A DNA stretch of 63,801 nucleotides, taken from assembly GCA_030531555.1 (NCBI GenBank), contig JAUNNI010000010.1:1-63801 (forward strand), given 5' to 3'. This document shows, piece after piece, positions 26,414-60,256 of the stretch (its first letter is position 1; each line of letters begins with the position of its first letter). The position numbers and the translations under genes were made by a program. The notes beneath the pieces are model-generated. The model saw only the letters and a program-made list of their open reading frames with translations. It did no database searches and had not been told where the DNA came from. The DNA is from Eubacteriales bacterium. Lineage in GTDB: Bacteria > Bacillota > Clostridia > Lachnospirales > Lachnospiraceae.

Positions 26414-29400
26414 TTAATTTTTCTCTGACATCTTTTCTTTATAATGTTCTGAACCATCTTCACCCGCAGACCATTTTACCACTTTATGAGATACCCTTTG
26501 ATGCTTCAGAGGATATTCCATATAATTTCCATACTGCATGCTCATCAATGCATGAGGATACTTTGGAACGGAAACTTCGATTCCAGCAAATTCTGCGCGC
26601 CCGTATGGAAGAAGATCTTCGATATTAATGCATGTATAGCTGATTACAAAGCTGGCCACTGTTTTCAGATTCTGTTTTTTTGCAACAGCATTGTACTTGG
26701 TTGCTTTGTCAAGATAAGCTTGCTGACTCTCTTTCAATGATTTTTTCCAATAATCTGCAATCATTGCTTTTTCCTGCTTTTCAATCTGAATTTCCTCCTC
26801 ATTTCTAGGTGGAAATGGAACTGGTTTCTCAGGATACTGATTTCTTACAATCGCATTGTGCTCCAGAGACAGCTTCGTTACTTCTTTAATCAGACTCTCA
26901 CGTTTTTTCATATCATTTGGAACATAATCAAACGGGAATATGTCCAGTCCAATTCCTTTATGCATGTCACGGTCATAAGTAAAATCTGTAAAATATTCTG
27001 TATTGTTCAATCGTAATTTACTATAAACATATGGAATGTTTGGATCCGATTCACGTGTCTGCAAGAAGAATTCGCTTCCGAAATACTCAGGTCCTTTTTC
27101 CAGCAGCTTATCATAGTCTTCTCGAAGCATGCCCACATCGGTATCATCATCCCATGGAATAAAACCGCCATGTCTCATGCATCCAAGTAAAGTGCCTGCA
27201 CAAATAAAATATCCGATGCCCATCTCTTTACATACACGGTCAAATTCAACCAATAGTTTCTTATTCTCTCTTTGAAGGGTCTCAATCTGATAAGATAACT
27301 CCCCATTCATTGGCTGGTACCATGGAGTAACATCACCAAGACAAACCAAATCCATATCACGGAAAGGAAGAGTGATTGTATGAGAAACATTTTCCTCCGT
27401 TGCCACTTTTCCACTGAAAGCAAATGCAATCCTCTGATATCCTTCCGGATTAGGATCCTCATTATATTTCTGTGCATACTGATCCAGTTCCTCTGCCATT
27501 TTCACAAGATCTGCTGATTTATATTTTTCTCTTTTGGCCTGAATTTCAGAAGCAGTATAGATATCCTTATATTTTCCAACGGTGTTCAGCTTAAAATTCA
27601 GTGCTTCCTCATAATCCTGATTCATTCGCTTAATTTGATCCAAAAAAGCTTTTTTGGTATAGAAAGAAGCTGGTACTTTATCGTATGGATGTAATCGAAC
27701 CATCATCAGCCACTCATTTCGTCCGGCCAATGTCACATGTTTCGTCAGCATCGGATATTTTCCTTCCATATCTCTGGATTCGTTTAACTGAAGGCCATAA
27801 GCTTCCCCATGCTTTCTTAAAAATTCCAAAAGTTTCTCATAATCGGAACGAAGCAAGCCAATGGAAAAACTTTTTGTTCCACCAAATGGAATGACATCTT
27901 TATATACATAAGCTCCAATCAAAAGATCTGCCGTCGCAAAATAAGGAATGCCTTGTTCTTTGCAAAGCGCATCCAACATTTTTAATACTTTTGTTTTTCC
28001 CTCAGACAGATATTCCGTATATCCCGGATCTTTGTCCTCTGCCCAAATATATGGATTATAAGGCAAGGAAACTTCTATACCATTCCAATCTTTTTTCTGA
28101 ATAGGATAAATCTCATTCACCGGAATGCTCTTGCTAATCTCCGTGCTTGCCTGAAATACTTTTTTACAATCTTTTTTATTATATGTTTTCATTTTCCCGG
28201 ACAACAATCCCAAGGTTTCTTCCATGGACTGTCTTTCCTTCGGATTGATCTTCATTCCAGTGTCTCTCAAAAGATTGTTGCGATGTCTGTTGATTAAAGC
28301 TCGGATTTCACTTCGAAAACGGAAAGTTTCTTCATAATTATCCGTCATATGATCATATGGAAGAATTTCAATATATAAATTCTCCTGCAGGAGGTCATCG
28401 CCTGTATTTAAAGTAATTCTTTTTACCAAATCTGGGAAGGTAGGATGTTCGTGATCATTTTCCATCAAAAGCAATTCCTGTGAGGAATCCTTTCGTTTCA
28501 AAAGTGCAAGTAATCGATCGTACTCTTTTCTAAAAAGTCCCACACTCCAGATAAAATCATTTGTTTTTGGAAATTGTCCTTCTGAGATTATAGAAATCAG
28601 TAAATCTTTTACTACAAAATACTCTATCCCCTGCTTTTTACATAATTCATCAAACTTCTGTAGAAGGATCCGCTTTCTCTCCAATCTTTCTTTCTCAAAC
28701 AAATCCTTCTTTTCCCAAAGAAAAGGATCTGGATGATTAGGAATCATAATCTCCTGTCCCATAAATTCGCTTTTCTGCGCCGGTAATATGTCTTTTGTAG
28801 AAAAAATTTCTCCGACACCCTGTTCCATATTACCAAGATAAGATGTGGAAGAATATCGATTTAAAATACTATCTTGTTTTCTCAGTAAAGAAGTGAAAGA
28901 AGAAACATCACTGGTTTTTTTCTTTCCTTTTGAAAAAAGCTCCGTTACACGATTCAAAAATGCTATTTTTTTATGTGATTTATAGAAACCTTTTTCAATT
29001 TTTCTATAATAGTCGTCTCTTTCTGCTTTTGTCTCTGGAAGATAAGAAAGCTGTTCCACATGGATGGAGACAGATATATCTTTTGATCCAACTTCTTCCG
29101 GGAAGGAACGTTTCATCACGATTTTAGGATATTTCTCCTGGCAAAAGAAATATTCTTTTAAATGAAAAGTAATCCCATCTTTCCCTGTTCCATATCTTTT
29201 TTCTAATTCTTCTACAAATTTTGTATAGTTGTTACCAACCAATGAAATCTTATAATCATTACAGTCTTTTTCCATGAGAGCATTTTCACCGGCAAGATCA
29301 AGAATCCCTTTGGTTACAATGTATTCAATCTGTAATTCTTTGCAAATTATATTTATATGCTCAATCATCTCTTTGAGCAAAGTAAGCTTATATTGAAAAC

Positions 29401-29440
29401 GATTTTTTTCTATCTGGTCTTTTCTCGTTTGAATGTCCAT
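26414..29440 (-). CDS. Giant LicD-family protein with four tandem LicD-like units, only the last catalytically complete
   Basis: The 1008-residue protein is about four times the usual LicD length. LicD proteins transfer phosphocholine or similar phospho-groups to teichoic acids and glycans. Four units start near residues 18, 255, 482 and 722. Aligned segments are KELQIEYIVTKGILDL, KKQGIEYFVVKDLLI, KEQGIPYFATADLLIG and KEMGIGYFICAGTLLG. Only the fourth has the metal-binding PWDDDTDVGM (762-771); the corresponding places in units 1-3 read MEKDCNDYKISL, PKTNDFIWSVGL and PFGGTKSFSIGL, keeping shape but losing acidic residues. Units end with a related EI/EV-x-x-P segment. The start at 29440 is chosen because AAAGGGGAAATA precedes ATG; an upstream in-frame extension to 29563 has no ribosome site and crosses a terminator. 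Units 1-3 may be binding or scaffold modules. Confidence 0.88.
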   Translation of the reverse strand: MDIQTRKDQIEKNRFQYKLTLLKEMIEHINIICKELQIEYIVTKGILDLAGENALMEKDCNDYKISLVGNNYTKFVEELEKRYGTGKDGITFHLKEYFFCQEKYPKIVMKRSFPEEVGSKDISVSIHVEQLSYLPETKAERDDYYRKIEKGFYKSHKKIAFLNRVTELFSKGKKKTSDVSSFTSLLRKQDSILNRYSSTSYLGNMEQGVGEIFSTKDILPAQKSEFMGQEIMIPNHPDPFLWEKKDLFEKERLERKRILLQKFDELCKKQGIEYFVVKDLLISIISEGQFPKTNDFIWSVGLFRKEYDRLLALLKRKDSSQELLLMENDHEHPTFPDLVKRITLNTGDDLLQENLYIEILPYDHMTDNYEETFRFRSEIRALINRHRNNLLRDTGMKINPKERQSMEETLGLLSGKMKTYNKKDCKKVFQASTEISKSIPVNEIYPIQKKDWNGIEVSLPYNPYIWAEDKDPGYTEYLSEGKTKVLKMLDALCKEQGIPYFATADLLIGAYVYKDVIPFGGTKSFSIGLLRSDYEKLLEFLRKHGEAYGLQLNESRDMEGKYPMLTKHVTLAGRNEWLMMVRLHPYDKVPASFYTKKAFLDQIKRMNQDYEEALNFKLNTVGKYKDIYTASEIQAKREKYKSADLVKMAEELDQYAQKYNEDPNPEGYQRIAFAFSGKVATEENVSHTITLPFRDMDLVCLGDVTPWYQPMNGELSYQIETLQRENKKLLVEFDRVCKEMGIGYFICAGTLLGCMRHGGFIPWDDDTDVGMLREDYDKLLEKGPEYFGSEFFLQTRESDPNIPYVYSKLRLNNTEYFTDFTYDRDMHKGIGLDIFPFDYVPNDMKKRESLIKEVTKLSLEHNAIVRNQYPEKPVPFPPRNEEEIQIEKQEKAMIADYWKKSLKESQQAYLDKATKYNAVAKKQNLKTVASFVISYTCINIEDLLPYGRAEFAGIEVSVPKYPHALMSMQYGNYMEYPLKHQRVSHKVVKWSAGEDGSEHYKEKMSEKN

Positions 29441-29556
29441 TATTTCCCCTTTATACTCCATATTTTGTATGATTATTTTAACAAAAAAAAATTGTTTTAT
29501 AAATAGAAAAATAAGTGAACTAGCGCCGCTTTTTCCATCACAAAAACAATAAAAAA

Positions 29557-29589
29557 AGAGCATCCATGACTACCAATTCCAGATGCTCT
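29557..29589 (-). terminator. Terminator of the candidate RNA
   Basis: AGAGCATC at 29582-29589 pairs with GATGCTCT at 29557-29564 on the minus strand, followed by seven T. It lies 110 bases before the LicD start codon. Confidence 0.82.
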
Positions 29590-29955
29590 CTATAAGTGAT
29601 GTTCAATTGTCATTTCCAATGGTCTATACCTCCTTTATCTTAATATCGTTTTTGTTGATGACTTATGTTTTTGTTGGAGTGTACCCCTGATTTCATATTA
29701 TAAAATATTAAGAACTTTCTGTTAAGTATCTGCATTCCCTGCATCTTCTACGAAGGTTATGTCAAATCTACGGAATTCTTAAAATCTTATAAAACTTTCC
29801 AATGACGAGTTATCGTGTTACAAATCCTATGAATTCTCTTAAAATTACTTTGTTATTCGTTACCGATTCTTTTGATACATATCATGAGTAGTTCAAATAT
29901 GATAATCTACTCTATTCTCGTTCGATCAACTAGTTTATTTTAATGAATTCGAAGC

Positions 29956-29998
29956 TTAAGTTTTTTTCGGACCGTACCTCCTGATTCTTAGTATCGTT
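29956..29998 (-). repeat. Direct repeat unit within the candidate RNA (copy 1)
   Basis: On the minus strand the unit reads GATACTAAGAATC-AGGAGGTACGGTCC-GAAAAAAACTTAAG. It matches copy 2 (30010-30051) at nearly every position apart from one inserted A and a few substitutions. Weaker versions occur around 29664-29700 and 29620-29650. Confidence 0.8.
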
Positions 29999-30009
29999 TC
30001 GAGTCCTAG

Positions 30010-30051
30010 TTTAAGTTTTTGTTGGACCGTACCTCCGATTCTTAGTATTGT
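30010..30051 (-). repeat. Direct repeat unit within the candidate RNA (copy 2)
   Basis: On the minus strand the unit reads AATACTAAGAATC-GGAGGTACGGTCC-AACAAAAACTTAAA. It is spaced 54 bases from copy 1. The shared GGAGGTACGGTCC core can fold GGA...TCC or expose a GGA motif. Confidence 0.8.
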
Positions 30052-30093
30052 TTTAAGAAAGCACTTCTAAAATGTTTTCTTGTTTATGTCTGT

Positions 30094-30122
30094 ATTATAA
30101 GATCTTTCTTTTGATTTGTCAA
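30094..30122 (-). promoter_or_regulatory. Perfect consensus sigma-70 promoter of the candidate RNA
   Basis: On the minus strand TTGACA (30117-30122), 17 bases, then TATAAT (30094-30099). No other promoter seen in this window matches the consensus at all positions, implying strong expression. Predicted start is near 30087. Confidence 0.88.
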
Positions 30123-30282: not shown

Positions 30283-30810
30283 TTATTCTCCTCGAATTCG
30301 AAACTTCTTCCGGATTTCATCTCTCCCCCAAAGTTCCACATCATTTTGCCTTGCCAGATTTCTCGCACTTTTTGTAAAATATCGATTCGTCACTACCATC
30401 GCTCGATCTGCCTCATAATAAGCAATTGCAGCCACCGCTTCCTGGACAGCAGAAATCCCAATGTTTCTCTCGTAACGTTTGGCCTGAACAACTATCTTCT
30501 CCCCACGTTTTTTCATAATCAGATCTGCTCCATAATCATGGCTGATTTCCGTCGTCTTCACACGATAGCCCAATCTGCGGAATTGAACAATCAGATACTG
30601 CTCAAATGCTGCCCCGCTCAAACGGTCAATTCTCTTCATGGGCATATTCACATAACGACCACTCCAAACACTTCGCAAGAACAGGATACAAAAAATCGCA
30701 CATGCCATGGCAAAACATGCTGTATACTCTATATTTCCGTTACAGTAATACCAATAACCTCCACAGTACATGGCAAGTGCTGCCAGCAATTCTAAAAGCC
30801 AGATCATCAA
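30283..30810 (-). CDS. Membrane-anchored Mrr-type restriction endonuclease-like protein
   Basis: A 175-residue protein with two N-terminal membrane segments (about 4-22 and 28-48) and a cytoplasmic PD-(D/E)xK nuclease domain of the Mrr_cat type. Catalytic residues are visible: Asp in DYGADLIM (near residue 92) and QAK in VVQAKRY (near 108), followed by the conserved GISAVQEAVAA and VVTNRYFTKSA. Small membrane-bound Mrr-like proteins of this layout are widespread in Firmicutes and mostly uncharacterised; no methyltransferase partner is present here. It lies 160 bases upstream of the candidate RNA promoter, on the same strand. The start has only a weak ribosome site. Confidence 0.8.
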   Translation of the reverse strand: MMIWLLELLAALAMYCGGYWYYCNGNIEYTACFAMACAIFCILFLRSVWSGRYVNMPMKRIDRLSGAAFEQYLIVQFRRLGYRVKTTEISHDYGADLIMKKRGEKIVVQAKRYERNIGISAVQEAVAAIAYYEADRAMVVTNRYFTKSARNLARQNDVELWGRDEIRKKFRIRGE

Positions 30811-31015: not shown

Positions 31016-31107
31016 AAAATTAGGTAGAATCTGCATTGTAGAAGTTGCCTATGATACAGATAAAAGCAACATTCCCATGAAAACAGATGACCTGGGGAGG
31101 GATCTAC

Positions 31108-33471
31108 ATGTCTTTATTTGATAAATATTTTTTAATGAAAGAAGAAGATGTTATCGTCTATGTTCAGGAAAAAACTTCCTTCTTCCCAAAAGATGCAGAA
31201 TTATCCTGCAAGGAAATCGGCGATGGCAATCTGAATTATGTTTTTCGTATCGTGGATGCAAAAACAAACCGTTCCCTGATTGTAAAACAGGCGGGCGATC
31301 AGCTTCGTATTTCTGATGAAATGACCTTAACCCGTGACCGCGGCAGAATCGAAGCAAATATTTTGAAACTGCAAGGTAAGCTTTGTCCCGGATTGGTGCC
31401 AGAAGTTTTCCTTTATGATGGCATCATGTCCGCCATCATCATGGAAGATATGATTGGTCATACCATGATGCGTACTGGTCTTGTAAACCACGAAATCTAC
31501 CCTGCTTTTGCAGATCAGATTACCACTTTCCTTGCAAATACCCTGCTTCTGACTTCCGACGTAGTCATGGATCACCAGCAGAAGAAGGAACTGACTCGCG
31601 AATTTATCAATCCAGAACTTTGTGATATCACTGAGAATCTGGTATTCGGGGAACCGCTCCTCGACTATAACAAACGAAATGATTTCCTGCCGGAAATGGC
31701 AGATTTTATTGAAAAGAACATCTATAATGATGAGGAATTAAAAGCTGCTGTGGCGGATCTTAAATTTAATTTTATGAACAATGCCCAGTCTCTCATCCAC
31801 GGGGATCTTCATACCGGATCGATTTTCATCAATCAGAAACACACCTTTGTCTTTGATCCTGAATTCGCTTTCTTTGGACCAATGGGCTATGACATTGGTA
31901 ATGTACTTGCCAATCTCTTCTTTGCCTTTGCCAACGGCAATGCAACCATTGCTTCTTTGGATGAAAAGAAACATTTTTGTGGTTGGTGTCTCTGCACCAT
32001 GATGGAAGTTTTAGATCTTTTCAAAGAAAAATTCAGTAAATTATATGACGAAATGGTGACGGATCCTTCCGCCAAATCTCCACAGTTTAAGGAAGCATAT
32101 CTGAAACAGATTCTTGCGGATAGCGCAGGCTTTGCAGGAACAGAATGTATCCGTCGTGTGGTAGGAATTGCTCATAATAAAGATATTATGGTTATCGAAT
32201 CCAAAGAAAAACGCATGGAAGCAGAACGCATTCTTCTTCTCTTTGCAAAAAATCTGATTCTTCACCGAGATACTTTCCTTTCCGGCACAGACTATTATGC
32301 TGCTGCGGAAAAAGCAGTCCATGCTATAGACCCTGCAAATGAAGTAATCGGTCCAAAACGTACCATCTTAGATTATGACACCGTTGCTCTTGATGAATAC
32401 AAACATGCTTTGGTTATCATTGATCAGACCAAGCTCCCAAACCGCATCGAAATCCTCTCCCTGACTGCTCAGGAGGACATCTGGGATGCCATCTATCTTC
32501 TGAAAGTTCGAGGTGCACCAGCCATCGGTGTTGCTGCAGCGATCGGTATCTATCTGGCAGCCAGAGAAATTGAGGCAGATGATTATAATACTTTCTATGA
32601 GAAATTCAAAAAAGCTTCCGGTTATCTCAACTCTTCCCGTCCAACTGCAGTGAATCTGTCCTGGGCACTGAAGAGAATGGAACAGATTGTGATCGATTCC
32701 AAAGAACTTCCTCTTGCAGAGATCGTGGAGCTTCTCCATAAAGAAGCTCTTAAGATTCGTCAGGAAGACATCGATGTTTGCCGAAACATTGGCCGTTATG
32801 GATTAAGCCTTGTAAAACCAGGCGATGGTCTTTTGACCCATTGCAATGCTGGTCAGCTTGCCACCGTCAAATATGGTACCGCAACTGCACCAATGTATCT
32901 TGGCCATGAACAGGGCTACAATTTTAAAATTTATTGTGACGAAACCCGTCCACTATTACAAGGTGCTCGTCTCACCAGTTTTGAGCTTGCAAGCGCTGGA
33001 ATGGATGTCACTGTCCTATGTGACAATATGTCCGCTTCCCTCATGCGTGAAGGCAAAGTAAATGCCATCTTTGTGGGTTGTGACCGCGTCGCTGCCAATG
33101 GAGATGCTGCCAATAAGATTGGAACTTCCATGGTTGCATTGGCTGCCAAACGATACGGCATTCCTTTCTATGTATGTGCACCAACCTCCACCATCGACCT
33201 TTCCACTGCCACAGGTTCCGACATCGTCATCGAACAGCGCAAAGCTTCTGAAGTTACCAGCATGTGGTATAAAGAAGCCATGGTAGCGGATGGCATCGAT
33301 GCTTACAATCCAGCCTTTGACGTAACAGATCAGGATCTGATCACTGGTATCGTCACAGAATTTGGTATCGCTTACCCACCATATACCGAAAGTTTCAAAG
33401 AAATCTTTCTCCGTAAGGAAATCAAAAAAACAGTGGAAGAGATTGTTGACAATCTGGATATGGGAATCTGA
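31108..33471 (+). CDS. mtnK-mtnA: Fused methylthioribose kinase and methylthioribose-1-phosphate isomerase (MtnK-MtnA)
   Basis: The 787-residue protein joins two consecutive steps of methionine salvage. Residues 1 to about 400 are MtnK, which phosphorylates 5-methylthioribose: the kinase catalytic loop is HGDLHTGS at 231-238 and the metal site is DPEFAFFGP at 250-258. Residues about 430-787 are MtnA, which isomerises MTR-1-phosphate to methylthioribulose-1-phosphate. It shows KVRGAPAIGVAAA, the catalytic Cys in THCNAGQLAT and Asp in GCDRVAANGD. In most bacteria these are separate genes; the fusion would channel the intermediate. ATG 31108 is preferred over an in-frame ATG at 31087 because GGGGAGG lies between them. 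No other mtn gene follows; a single-gene transcript with its own promoter and terminator. Confidence 0.92.
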   Translation: MSLFDKYFLMKEEDVIVYVQEKTSFFPKDAELSCKEIGDGNLNYVFRIVDAKTNRSLIVKQAGDQLRISDEMTLTRDRGRIEANILKLQGKLCPGLVPEVFLYDGIMSAIIMEDMIGHTMMRTGLVNHEIYPAFADQITTFLANTLLLTSDVVMDHQQKKELTREFINPELCDITENLVFGEPLLDYNKRNDFLPEMADFIEKNIYNDEELKAAVADLKFNFMNNAQSLIHGDLHTGSIFINQKHTFVFDPEFAFFGPMGYDIGNVLANLFFAFANGNATIASLDEKKHFCGWCLCTMMEVLDLFKEKFSKLYDEMVTDPSAKSPQFKEAYLKQILADSAGFAGTECIRRVVGIAHNKDIMVIESKEKRMEAERILLLFAKNLILHRDTFLSGTDYYAAAEKAVHAIDPANEVIGPKRTILDYDTVALDEYKHALVIIDQTKLPNRIEILSLTAQEDIWDAIYLLKVRGAPAIGVAAAIGIYLAAREIEADDYNTFYEKFKKASGYLNSSRPTAVNLSWALKRMEQIVIDSKELPLAEIVELLHKEALKIRQEDIDVCRNIGRYGLSLVKPGDGLLTHCNAGQLATVKYGTATAPMYLGHEQGYNFKIYCDETRPLLQGARLTSFELASAGMDVTVLCDNMSASLMREGKVNAIFVGCDRVAANGDAANKIGTSMVALAAKRYGIPFYVCAPTSTIDLSTATGSDIVIEQRKASEVTSMWYKEAMVADGIDAYNPAFDVTDQDLITGIVTEFGIAYPPYTESFKEIFLRKEIKKTVEEIVDNLDMGI

Positions 33472-50389: not shown

Positions 50390-50537
50390 ATAAATCATAT
50401 AATATGTAAATAATAAAAATCTCTTCCATCTCAGAAAATCGTTCCATCACATTCACAGAAACTCTTCATAATGAAATCTCATTCTTAGAGTATAAAACCG
50501 TTTCTGTCATGTGATTCTTTATCATTTACGTATCATA

Positions 50538-50660
50538 ACTCCTCTACCATCCGGACTATACCGTCGGCTCCAGAATCGCACTGGATCATGCCATAAGGCT
50601 CGCGGGCTTATACACAAAGTACACACCGCCGGTCAGGAATCTCACCCTGCCCCGAAGACT
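50538..50660 (-). promoter_or_regulatory. FMN riboswitch (RFN element)
   Basis: The minus strand contains the conserved RFN blocks in order: CGGGGCAGGGTGAGATTCC, GACCGGCGGT, AGCCCGCGAGC, CCGACGGTATAGTCCGGATG and GAGGAG. This is the six-stem FMN aptamer. It precedes a terminator and an FGGY kinase gene, not the usual ribU or rib operon. FMN binding is expected to switch transcription off. Confidence 0.95.
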
Positions 50661-50679
50661 TATTCTACTAACAAGAAAT

Positions 50680-56296: not shown

Positions 56297-56361
56297 TGTT
56301 ATTTACATAGAAAGGCGTACCAATATCTATCATCTATTATAAAACGCCTTTGTTCTATGAA

Positions 56362-56564
56362 TTACTCCGTCCTTTTGCCTGAGAGATTCGAAAACATACC
56401 CTATGTTTCCTTGCCCCTTCGGCCGCTGACTTGCTACAGCTGTCTCCAGAGTGCAATCCATTGACAATCCTATCTTACGAAGATACCTGAGAGTGTTACT
56501 CCTTCGGTCGGAAAACCTGTTTCTTGCCAATTTCTCTTTGCACTTTATTCATTTTTTAACTTAT
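56362..56564 (-). promoter_or_regulatory. Tandem glycine riboswitch
   Basis: On the minus strand, aptamer 1 contains GACCGAAGGAGTAACACTCTC and AGGTATC; aptamer 2 contains CCGAAGGGGCAAGG, ATCTCTCAGGCAAAAGGAC and a closing GGAG. Both show the glycine-aptamer core. This architecture upstream of an AGCS symporter is well established. Confidence 0.9.
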
Positions 56565-59977: not shown

Positions 59978-60256
59978 CGTGAAGAGCAATGATTGGGATA
60001 CGTCGTTGTGAATCTTTCATTTCAGAGAGCTGTTGTTTGGTGTGAAACAGTATGGAAGCCACAAAGGACATCACCCATAAGCATCCCGCTGAACCTGTAT
60101 TGGATATGCAGTATTAGGTGTGGACGGGTCCTCCCGTTAACGAGGTAAGCTGTGTTAGCAGTGGATTGAGTGGTCGCGTATGCGGCAAGTAGAGTGGTAC
60201 CACGGAAATATGAATTTTCGCCTCTATAGATTTACTATCTATAGAGGCTTTTTTGT
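59978..60256 (+). promoter_or_regulatory. T-box leader controlling the 2-oxoacid oxidoreductase operon
   Basis: Stem I features are present (AGAGAGCTGTTG...GGTGTGAA near 60025-60050). The T-box motif AGAGTGGTACCACGG is at 60191-60205, whose TGGT would pair with the tRNA NCCA end and fits a tRNA with discriminator base A. A terminator follows. Uncharged tRNA should allow readthrough. I could not assign the specifier codon with confidence; it should lie in the 3' strand near 60075-60090. Confidence 0.92.
60220..60254 (+). terminator. T-box terminator
   Basis: GCCTCTATAGA (60220-60230) pairs with TCTATAGAGGC (60238-60248), followed by six T. Confidence 0.92.

Follow-up and report, generated by a model that had tools for sequence, protein, structure and literature searches.

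We identified a predicted RNA gene on the minus strand of the window, the whole 63,801-nucleotide stretch of DNA analyzed here, that is bounded by its own promoter and terminator and carries a tandem array of modules resembling translation start sites. Among the distinct modules collected from this RNA and its relatives, most have no start codon. Our preferred reading, to which we assign a probability of about 40%, is that the transcript would act as a decoy, its mostly start-less Shine-Dalgarno (SD) modules holding 30S ribosomal subunits or a factor that recognizes start sites. The features at the locus are as follows.

30094..30122, minus strand: promoter TTGACA-17-TATAAT, both hexamers exact
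29551..30087, minus strand: predicted RNA of about 537 nt, bounded by the promoter and terminator positions, with homologues in the same genus
30011..30036, minus strand: module 1, start-less, GGAGGTACGGTCC and then ACA AAA ACT TAA
29956..29981, minus strand: module 2, start-less, GGAGGTACGGTCC and then AAA AAA ACT TAA
29663..29689, minus strand: module 3, diverged and start-less, AGGGGTACACTCC and then ACA AAA ACA TAA
29620..29633, minus strand: module 4 (terminal), SD and spacer GGAGGTATAGACCA
29590..29619, minus strand: terminal micro-ORF of 9 sense codons, TTG GAA ATG ACA ATT GAA CAT CAC TTA, stop TAG; homologues have one at the same place, in frame, with other stops
29551..29589, minus strand: intrinsic terminator, stem AGAGCATC/GATGCTCT followed by a T-run, from the fold and the homologues

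The original prediction, made from the sequence alone, had proposed that a perfect promoter and a terminator enclose a noncoding transcript of about 540 nt, and a discrete RNA gene of that size is supported here. The promoter (30122-30094) is the only exact TTGACA-N17-TATAAT in the window, and none of 100 shuffles contained one. The terminator hairpin with its T-run (29589-29551) recurs in the equivalent position in homologues, and the predicted RNA ends in that T-run; it was missing from a simple hairpin-scan list because its loop exceeds the limit of the scan. We placed the 5' end near position 30087 from the -10 box, and the RNA is presumably transcribed, perhaps strongly. The region indeed holds no ordinary gene, as had been claimed, but the small TTG-to-TAG frame at 29619-29590 had been overlooked; a conserved protein encoded here was thus found only in a very small sense, as a micro-ORF at the 3' end.

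To assess conservation, we used the RNA as a query at an E value of 0.01 and matched 34 of 99 genomes, including its own. Within the genus, 20 of the 23 other genomes matched at this threshold (G019 only marginally), and the three that did not were 76 to 83% complete. When we searched the 20 genus loci (the window's and L031 to L049) for near-consensus sites, a promoter was found in 18; TTGACA and TATAAT were exact in all of these while the spacer sequence differed, and the spacer was 17 nt long in 17 promoters and 18 nt in one. Of the two other loci, L047 starts at a contig edge and L049 has no exact module to serve as an anchor. A two-module pattern was found in 75 contigs among 84,980 species genomes, nearly all with titles that name Lachnospiraceae or other Clostridia (L070 and L119 seemed spurious when inspected and were left in the counts). 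On this sequence evidence, the RNA is conserved in Anaerobutyricum (including Anaerobutyricum hallii) and is also found in Roseburia (Roseburia inulinivorans), Blautia (Blautia schinkii), Butyrivibrio (Butyrivibrio fibrisolvens), Pseudobutyrivibrio, Anaerostipes, and many MAGs. A strict array pattern matched 32 of 397 family genomes and 25 of 334 genera, with no match for the reversed control; most genomes gave nothing, and the true share of family genomes with an array may be above 32/397.

Some genomes carry two arrays: at L178 (G328:C42), two clusters lie about 8 kb apart, and in G220 arrays are found on contigs C29 and C112. We also considered a mobile element and rejected it, as no viral contig contained the two-module pattern and no plasmid matched. 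Fourteen phage records matched the query; the five listed cover only its first 61 nt, which is the promoter end.

The four related GGAGGTA-type modules named in the original prediction are all present on the minus strand, with GTCC exact in two of the four. Their cores are GGAGGTACGGTCC at 30036-30024 and 29981-29969, AGGGGTACACTCC at 29688-29676, and GGAGGTATAGACC at 29633-29621. Allowing up to two mismatches, AGGAGGTAYRGWCC matched five sites in the window, three of them within the RNA region (expected, 0.98). Genus homologues contain up to seven exact modules, and neighboring modules are mostly 53 to 59 nt apart. Over 100 distinct arrays, the consensus is an A/G-rich stretch, GGAGGU, A-Y-R-G-W-C-C-R, three triplets, and UAA; module counts come from seeded patterns, so that seeded positions are conserved by construction, and for the consensus, which was seeded by related patterns, we assessed each half using hits that the other half had seeded. 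The module resembles a translation start site, with an SD, the near-invariant spacer UAYRGWCC, a start-codon position, and in most cases UAA at a distance of three codons. The SD, GGAGGU, can pair with the 16S 3' end, which we read as TGGATCACCTCCTTTCTA in four copies in the relative G004; the 16S 3'-end pattern had no match in the window's own assembly.

The first triplet after the spacer occupies the start-codon position. It is ATG, TTG, or GTG in 85 of 308 distinct modules. The other 223, including the window's three inner modules, lack a start codon, and across these 223 the triplet is mostly CCA (115), AAG (36), ACA (23), CCG (18), ATC (13), or AAA (10). In 56 of these 85 start-type modules, the first in-frame stop comes after 2 to 3 codons, and the remainder are largely terminal frames. 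Among ATG modules, a stop within the next three codons is in frame in 52 of 64, compared with 8 of 64 and 1 of 64 for the other frames. The 56 short start-type frames stop at UAA (38), UAG (10), or UGA (8), with the 18 UAG and UGA stops coming from 16 arrays. At the same position, the 223 start-less modules have UAA 148 times, UGA 8 times, and UAG never, and also UUA (25) and GUA (8). The contrast in the kind of stop between start-type and start-less modules (UGA 8 and UAG 0 of 156 stops in the latter) gave a Fisher P of 1e-6, uncorrected for shared descent, which all of our statistics ignore. Because UAA is nearly the sole stop in start-less modules, while any stop occurs in start-type modules, we take UAA to be an RNA motif in the former, whereas a stop as such is kept where translation could begin. 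The start-bearing modules carry what looks like the mark of real ribosome traffic, namely any of three stops, kept in frame, and the sequence evidence supports contact of ribosomes with the start-type modules and the terminal frame. This start/stop evidence comes from relatives, all three inner modules in the window being start-less.

In the window, the fourth module opens the terminal micro-ORF, which would encode MEMTIEHHL. To determine whether this arrangement recurs, we compared 45 distinct cases drawn from 117 overlapping sources (100 arrays and 17 full-length copies); a case was kept if our rule detected a terminator together with a start codon at the expected place, so the start codon is there by construction. 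In 44 of 45 cases (L070 is the one case without a stop), the terminal frame is closed within 10 codons, compared with 31 of 45 and 25 of 45 for the other frames, and it has 5 to 10 sense codons in 43 of 45, most often 5 or 7. In 35 of 45 cases, no more than 2 nt separate the stop from the base of the terminator stem, whereas the same rule gives 5 of 91 for ordinary genes, these being the genes with a rule-defined terminator among 335 examined (P = 3e-18, uncorrected for descent). Ten cases depart from this pattern, namely six Pseudobutyrivibrio-type frames that run 14 nt into the stem, two frames at -5, L069, and the spurious L070. The micro-ORF peptides vary by lineage (for example, MDSIV, MDEIV, MDTEH, and MIEPAM), which indicates that the arrangement is better conserved than the peptide it encodes.

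The window's genome also contains three further RNAs of a second type (type B) on two other contigs, C80 and C161 of G000 (loci L271 and L270).

C80, about 6.65 to 7.15 kb, minus strand: type-B RNA
C161, about 11.65 to 12.0 kb, plus strand: type-B RNA
C161, about 23.3 to 23.8 kb, plus strand: type-B RNA

Their promoters read TTGACA-17-TATTAT, and they carry modules of the start type along with micro-ORFs, for instance MKGRGP and MKLKEISL. One type-B RNA, used as a DNA query, matched 8 of 24 genus genomes, including its own. A strict type-B pattern matched 4 of 397 family genomes and was too strict, as it missed the copies in the window's own genome.

In the decoy model, a free-standing, trans-acting RNA would present several imitation translation start sites. 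The SD of each module would pair with the 16S 3' end at ordinary start-site spacing, mostly with no start codon following, so a start-less module could be bound, with no protein made, by a 30S subunit or by a factor recognizing the SD and spacer; at start-type modules, translation would be cut off after 2 to 3 codons. The last module would feed the micro-ORF that ends against the terminator hairpin, and a ribosome would thus sit at the 3' end of the RNA. Such a decoy would titrate initiation capacity or a start-site regulator, and bound subunits may also shield the RNA from decay. In favor of this model we count the homologues and their promoters, the complementarity of the SD to the 16S 3' end, the start/stop pattern, the position of the micro-ORF stop at the terminator stem, the synonymous changes at codon 3 of the type-B terminal frames, and the unrelated neighboring genes. 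If ribosomes or a start-site factor are indeed the target, this RNA would provide a testable example of trans action on translation capacity. A bolder version is that it represents a new regulatory RNA class, a ribosome-side counterpart of 6S RNA that is strongly expressed, combines start-less and start-stop mimics with a terminator-parked micro-ORF, and sets translation capacity in Lachnospiraceae by titrating 30S subunits or initiation factors; we regard this version as doubtful.

Several observations count against a decoy. The spacer UAYRGWCC varies no more than the SD does, and binding of 30S alone would not require this. The start/stop evidence was gathered from relatives, not from the window's start-less inner modules. 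By prediction, SD hexamers are less open than with shuffled linkers (0.336 versus 0.362; P = 0.01; 87 RNAs); we therefore rejected selection for open SDs, as slightly the reverse was found. In addition, one of the three type-B paralogues has no GGUAYRGWCC modules. Finally, the presence of the strict array in only 32 of 397 family genomes suggests that most relatives do not need the decoy, unless they carry diverged forms.

The main rival, which we consider possible although less likely than the decoy, is that a dedicated RNA-binding protein reads GGAGGUAYRGWCC, perhaps as a small hairpin, and that the array titrates or assembles this protein as a sponge or RNP scaffold; the likeness to a start site would then stem from a former mRNA target. 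The near-invariant spacer speaks for this rival, and the spacer AYRGWCC is predicted to be more open than in the shuffled-linker control in 64 of 87 RNAs. A local hairpin, GG.A.GGU-AYRG-ACC.R.CC, is also predicted with a probability of about 0.47, chiefly where the variable position of the module is A. Within arrays, this A is associated with CC at +12/13 (P = 0.0004) and GG with CC (P = 0.0002) when all modules are counted, but in start-less modules alone the two associations fall to P values of 0.013 and 0.18, so that a module hairpin is possible at most. The search for partners speaks against this rival. Outside the arrays, the motif was not in excess in 19 genus genomes (16 hits versus 28 for the reversed pattern, with 4 of the 16 in paralogous RNAs), and mRNA targets sharing the exact motif were rejected because such hits were no commoner than in the reversed control. 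CsrA scored over the cutoff in 0 of 24 genus genomes (G007 and G018 had subthreshold matches), while CsrA-bearing controls were found; this excludes CsrA as the protein and led us to reject a CsrB-like sponge for the genus, and our searches found no partner. We also viewed 20 outside-array hits in context: several were paralogous RNAs, and a few preceded longer frames. At one of the latter, L234 (G005:C179), AAGGAGGTACGGTCCA lies directly before a TTG-started frame of at least 139 codons and is possibly a true mRNA copy of the module.

It is improbable that the modules instead imitate the targets of a small RNA whose C-rich seed blocks SDs, with the array as its sponge. The modules do resemble such targets in their SD, spacer, and start position, and some of the tolerated changes (C/U and A/G) would preserve wobble pairing. 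However, where the module alternates between A and U, no fixed partner base could pair with both, and in the complete genome of G004 neither the exact 13-mer motif nor its complement occurs outside the array, as judged by a search for exact matches.

We give similarly little credence to a very small mRNA, in which the micro-peptide is the product and the repeated SDs help to stabilize or translate the RNA. The type-B RNAs speak for it. Their terminal frames have leucine at codon 3 in 17 of 17 distinct frames (TTA 11, TTG 4, and CTG 2), and 14 of the 17 peptides fit MKLxEI(H/S), with codon 2 (AAA or AAG) being fixed by the search pattern; these synonymous changes, together with the peptide fit, argue that the small type-B frames are translated. 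The regular stop of the terminal frame within 10 codons (44/45) would also suit an mRNA. Set against this, the peptides differ between lineages, the modules are better conserved than the peptide, and a frame of only 5 to 10 codons is preceded by as much as several hundred nt.

The original prediction had likened the transcript to large structured RNAs such as ROOL, and this was not supported. No Rfam 15 family reached its gathering score in the window region or in nine homologous loci, and the best match in the region at E values up to 10 was Ysr209, with 16.4 bits against a 59-bit cutoff. Seventeen homologues share little consensus structure (-21.7 kcal/mol over a 1,272-column alignment, its outer parts being read). 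Evidence for the several hairpins that had been proposed is also slight, the window RNA folding only a little better than shuffled sequence (z = -1.37, with an equally good fold in 6 of 100 shuffles). Elsewhere in the window, Rfam models identified a T-box leader (59980-60228, plus strand), an FMN riboswitch (50535-50663, minus strand), and a glycine riboswitch (56357-56459, minus strand).

The genes around the RNA argue for its independence. At most genus loci, a gene for an Mrr_cat protein precedes it, and a gene whose product has APH and IF-2B domains is nearby. In the window, these conserved upstream neighbors are at 30283-30810 (minus strand) and 31087-33471 (plus strand), and the latter encodes a 794-amino-acid protein that we take, from its domains, to be a methylthioribose kinase-isomerase fusion. 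On the downstream side, the commonest gene in the genus encodes a zinc carboxypeptidase (11 loci), with various genes elsewhere. In other genera, the neighbors are unrelated (polysaccharide deacetylase, D-Tyr-tRNA deacylase, HD phosphohydrolase with DnaG, and phosphoesterase) and occur in either orientation. By Pfam, the window's downstream protein is LicD and nothing else; it is listed as a 1,049-amino-acid frame (26414-29563, minus strand) with a single LicD domain at residues 778 to 1012; its start is likely the ATG at 29439 after GGGGAAATA, so the listed frame is probably too long. It had no clustering partner among the proteins of the other 19 genus loci. By this sequence context, the predicted RNA is a free-standing gene, independent of its neighbors. 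The earlier suggestion of an attenuator or leader controlling licD is thus very improbable: licD is on the same strand about 110 nt past the terminator, and a ribosome that reached the stop of the micro-ORF would lie over the terminator stem, but downstream genes are not conserved and are often on the opposite strand. A type III toxin-antitoxin RNA was likewise rejected, since no toxin of that family was encoded directly downstream among the 10 proteins scanned (LicD, carboxypeptidase, deacetylase, esterase, and HD phosphohydrolase among them).

To our knowledge, no RNA combines tandem start-site mimics with a micro-ORF that abuts the terminator. Searches of literature listings returned no description of it, and in the main text of three ncRNA-discovery papers (PMC8040213, PMC11109978, and PMC8632094), the terms we asked for do not occur. 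Collectively, these data point to an RNA gene family across a dominant group of gut bacteria that is absent from Rfam and undescribed as far as our searches reach. They also point to conserved reading frames of 2 to 10 codons, below what gene finders report.

Several known systems share some of these properties. The ornate RNAs ROOL, GOLLD, and OLE are alike in size range and in having bacterial hosts; the RNA described here differs in having no Rfam match and a weak consensus structure. CsrB and RsmZ are free-standing sponge RNAs that carry many copies of a GGA-containing motif and titrate in trans. Our RNA is also free-standing with many GGA-motif copies, and trans titration is suspected; in contrast, CsrA exceeds the cutoff in 0 of 24 genus genomes, conservation extends past the GGA, and there are a start/stop pattern and a micro-ORF. 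The lambda bar minigene consists of an SD followed by a frame of 2 to 3 codons. The same arrangement is described for the axe-txe minigene (PMC8708949). It is seen here in 56 of 308 distinct modules, although these form tandem arrays in a dedicated RNA gene and most modules have no start codon. STAB-SD elements of Bacillus and other Firmicutes are extended, start-less SDs that are thought to bind 30S subunits without starting translation and thereby to stabilize the RNA. Our modules likewise have an extended SD, and 30S subunits bound to them may protect the RNA from decay; what sets them apart from STAB-SD elements is their arrangement in arrays with an invariant spacer and a terminal micro-ORF.
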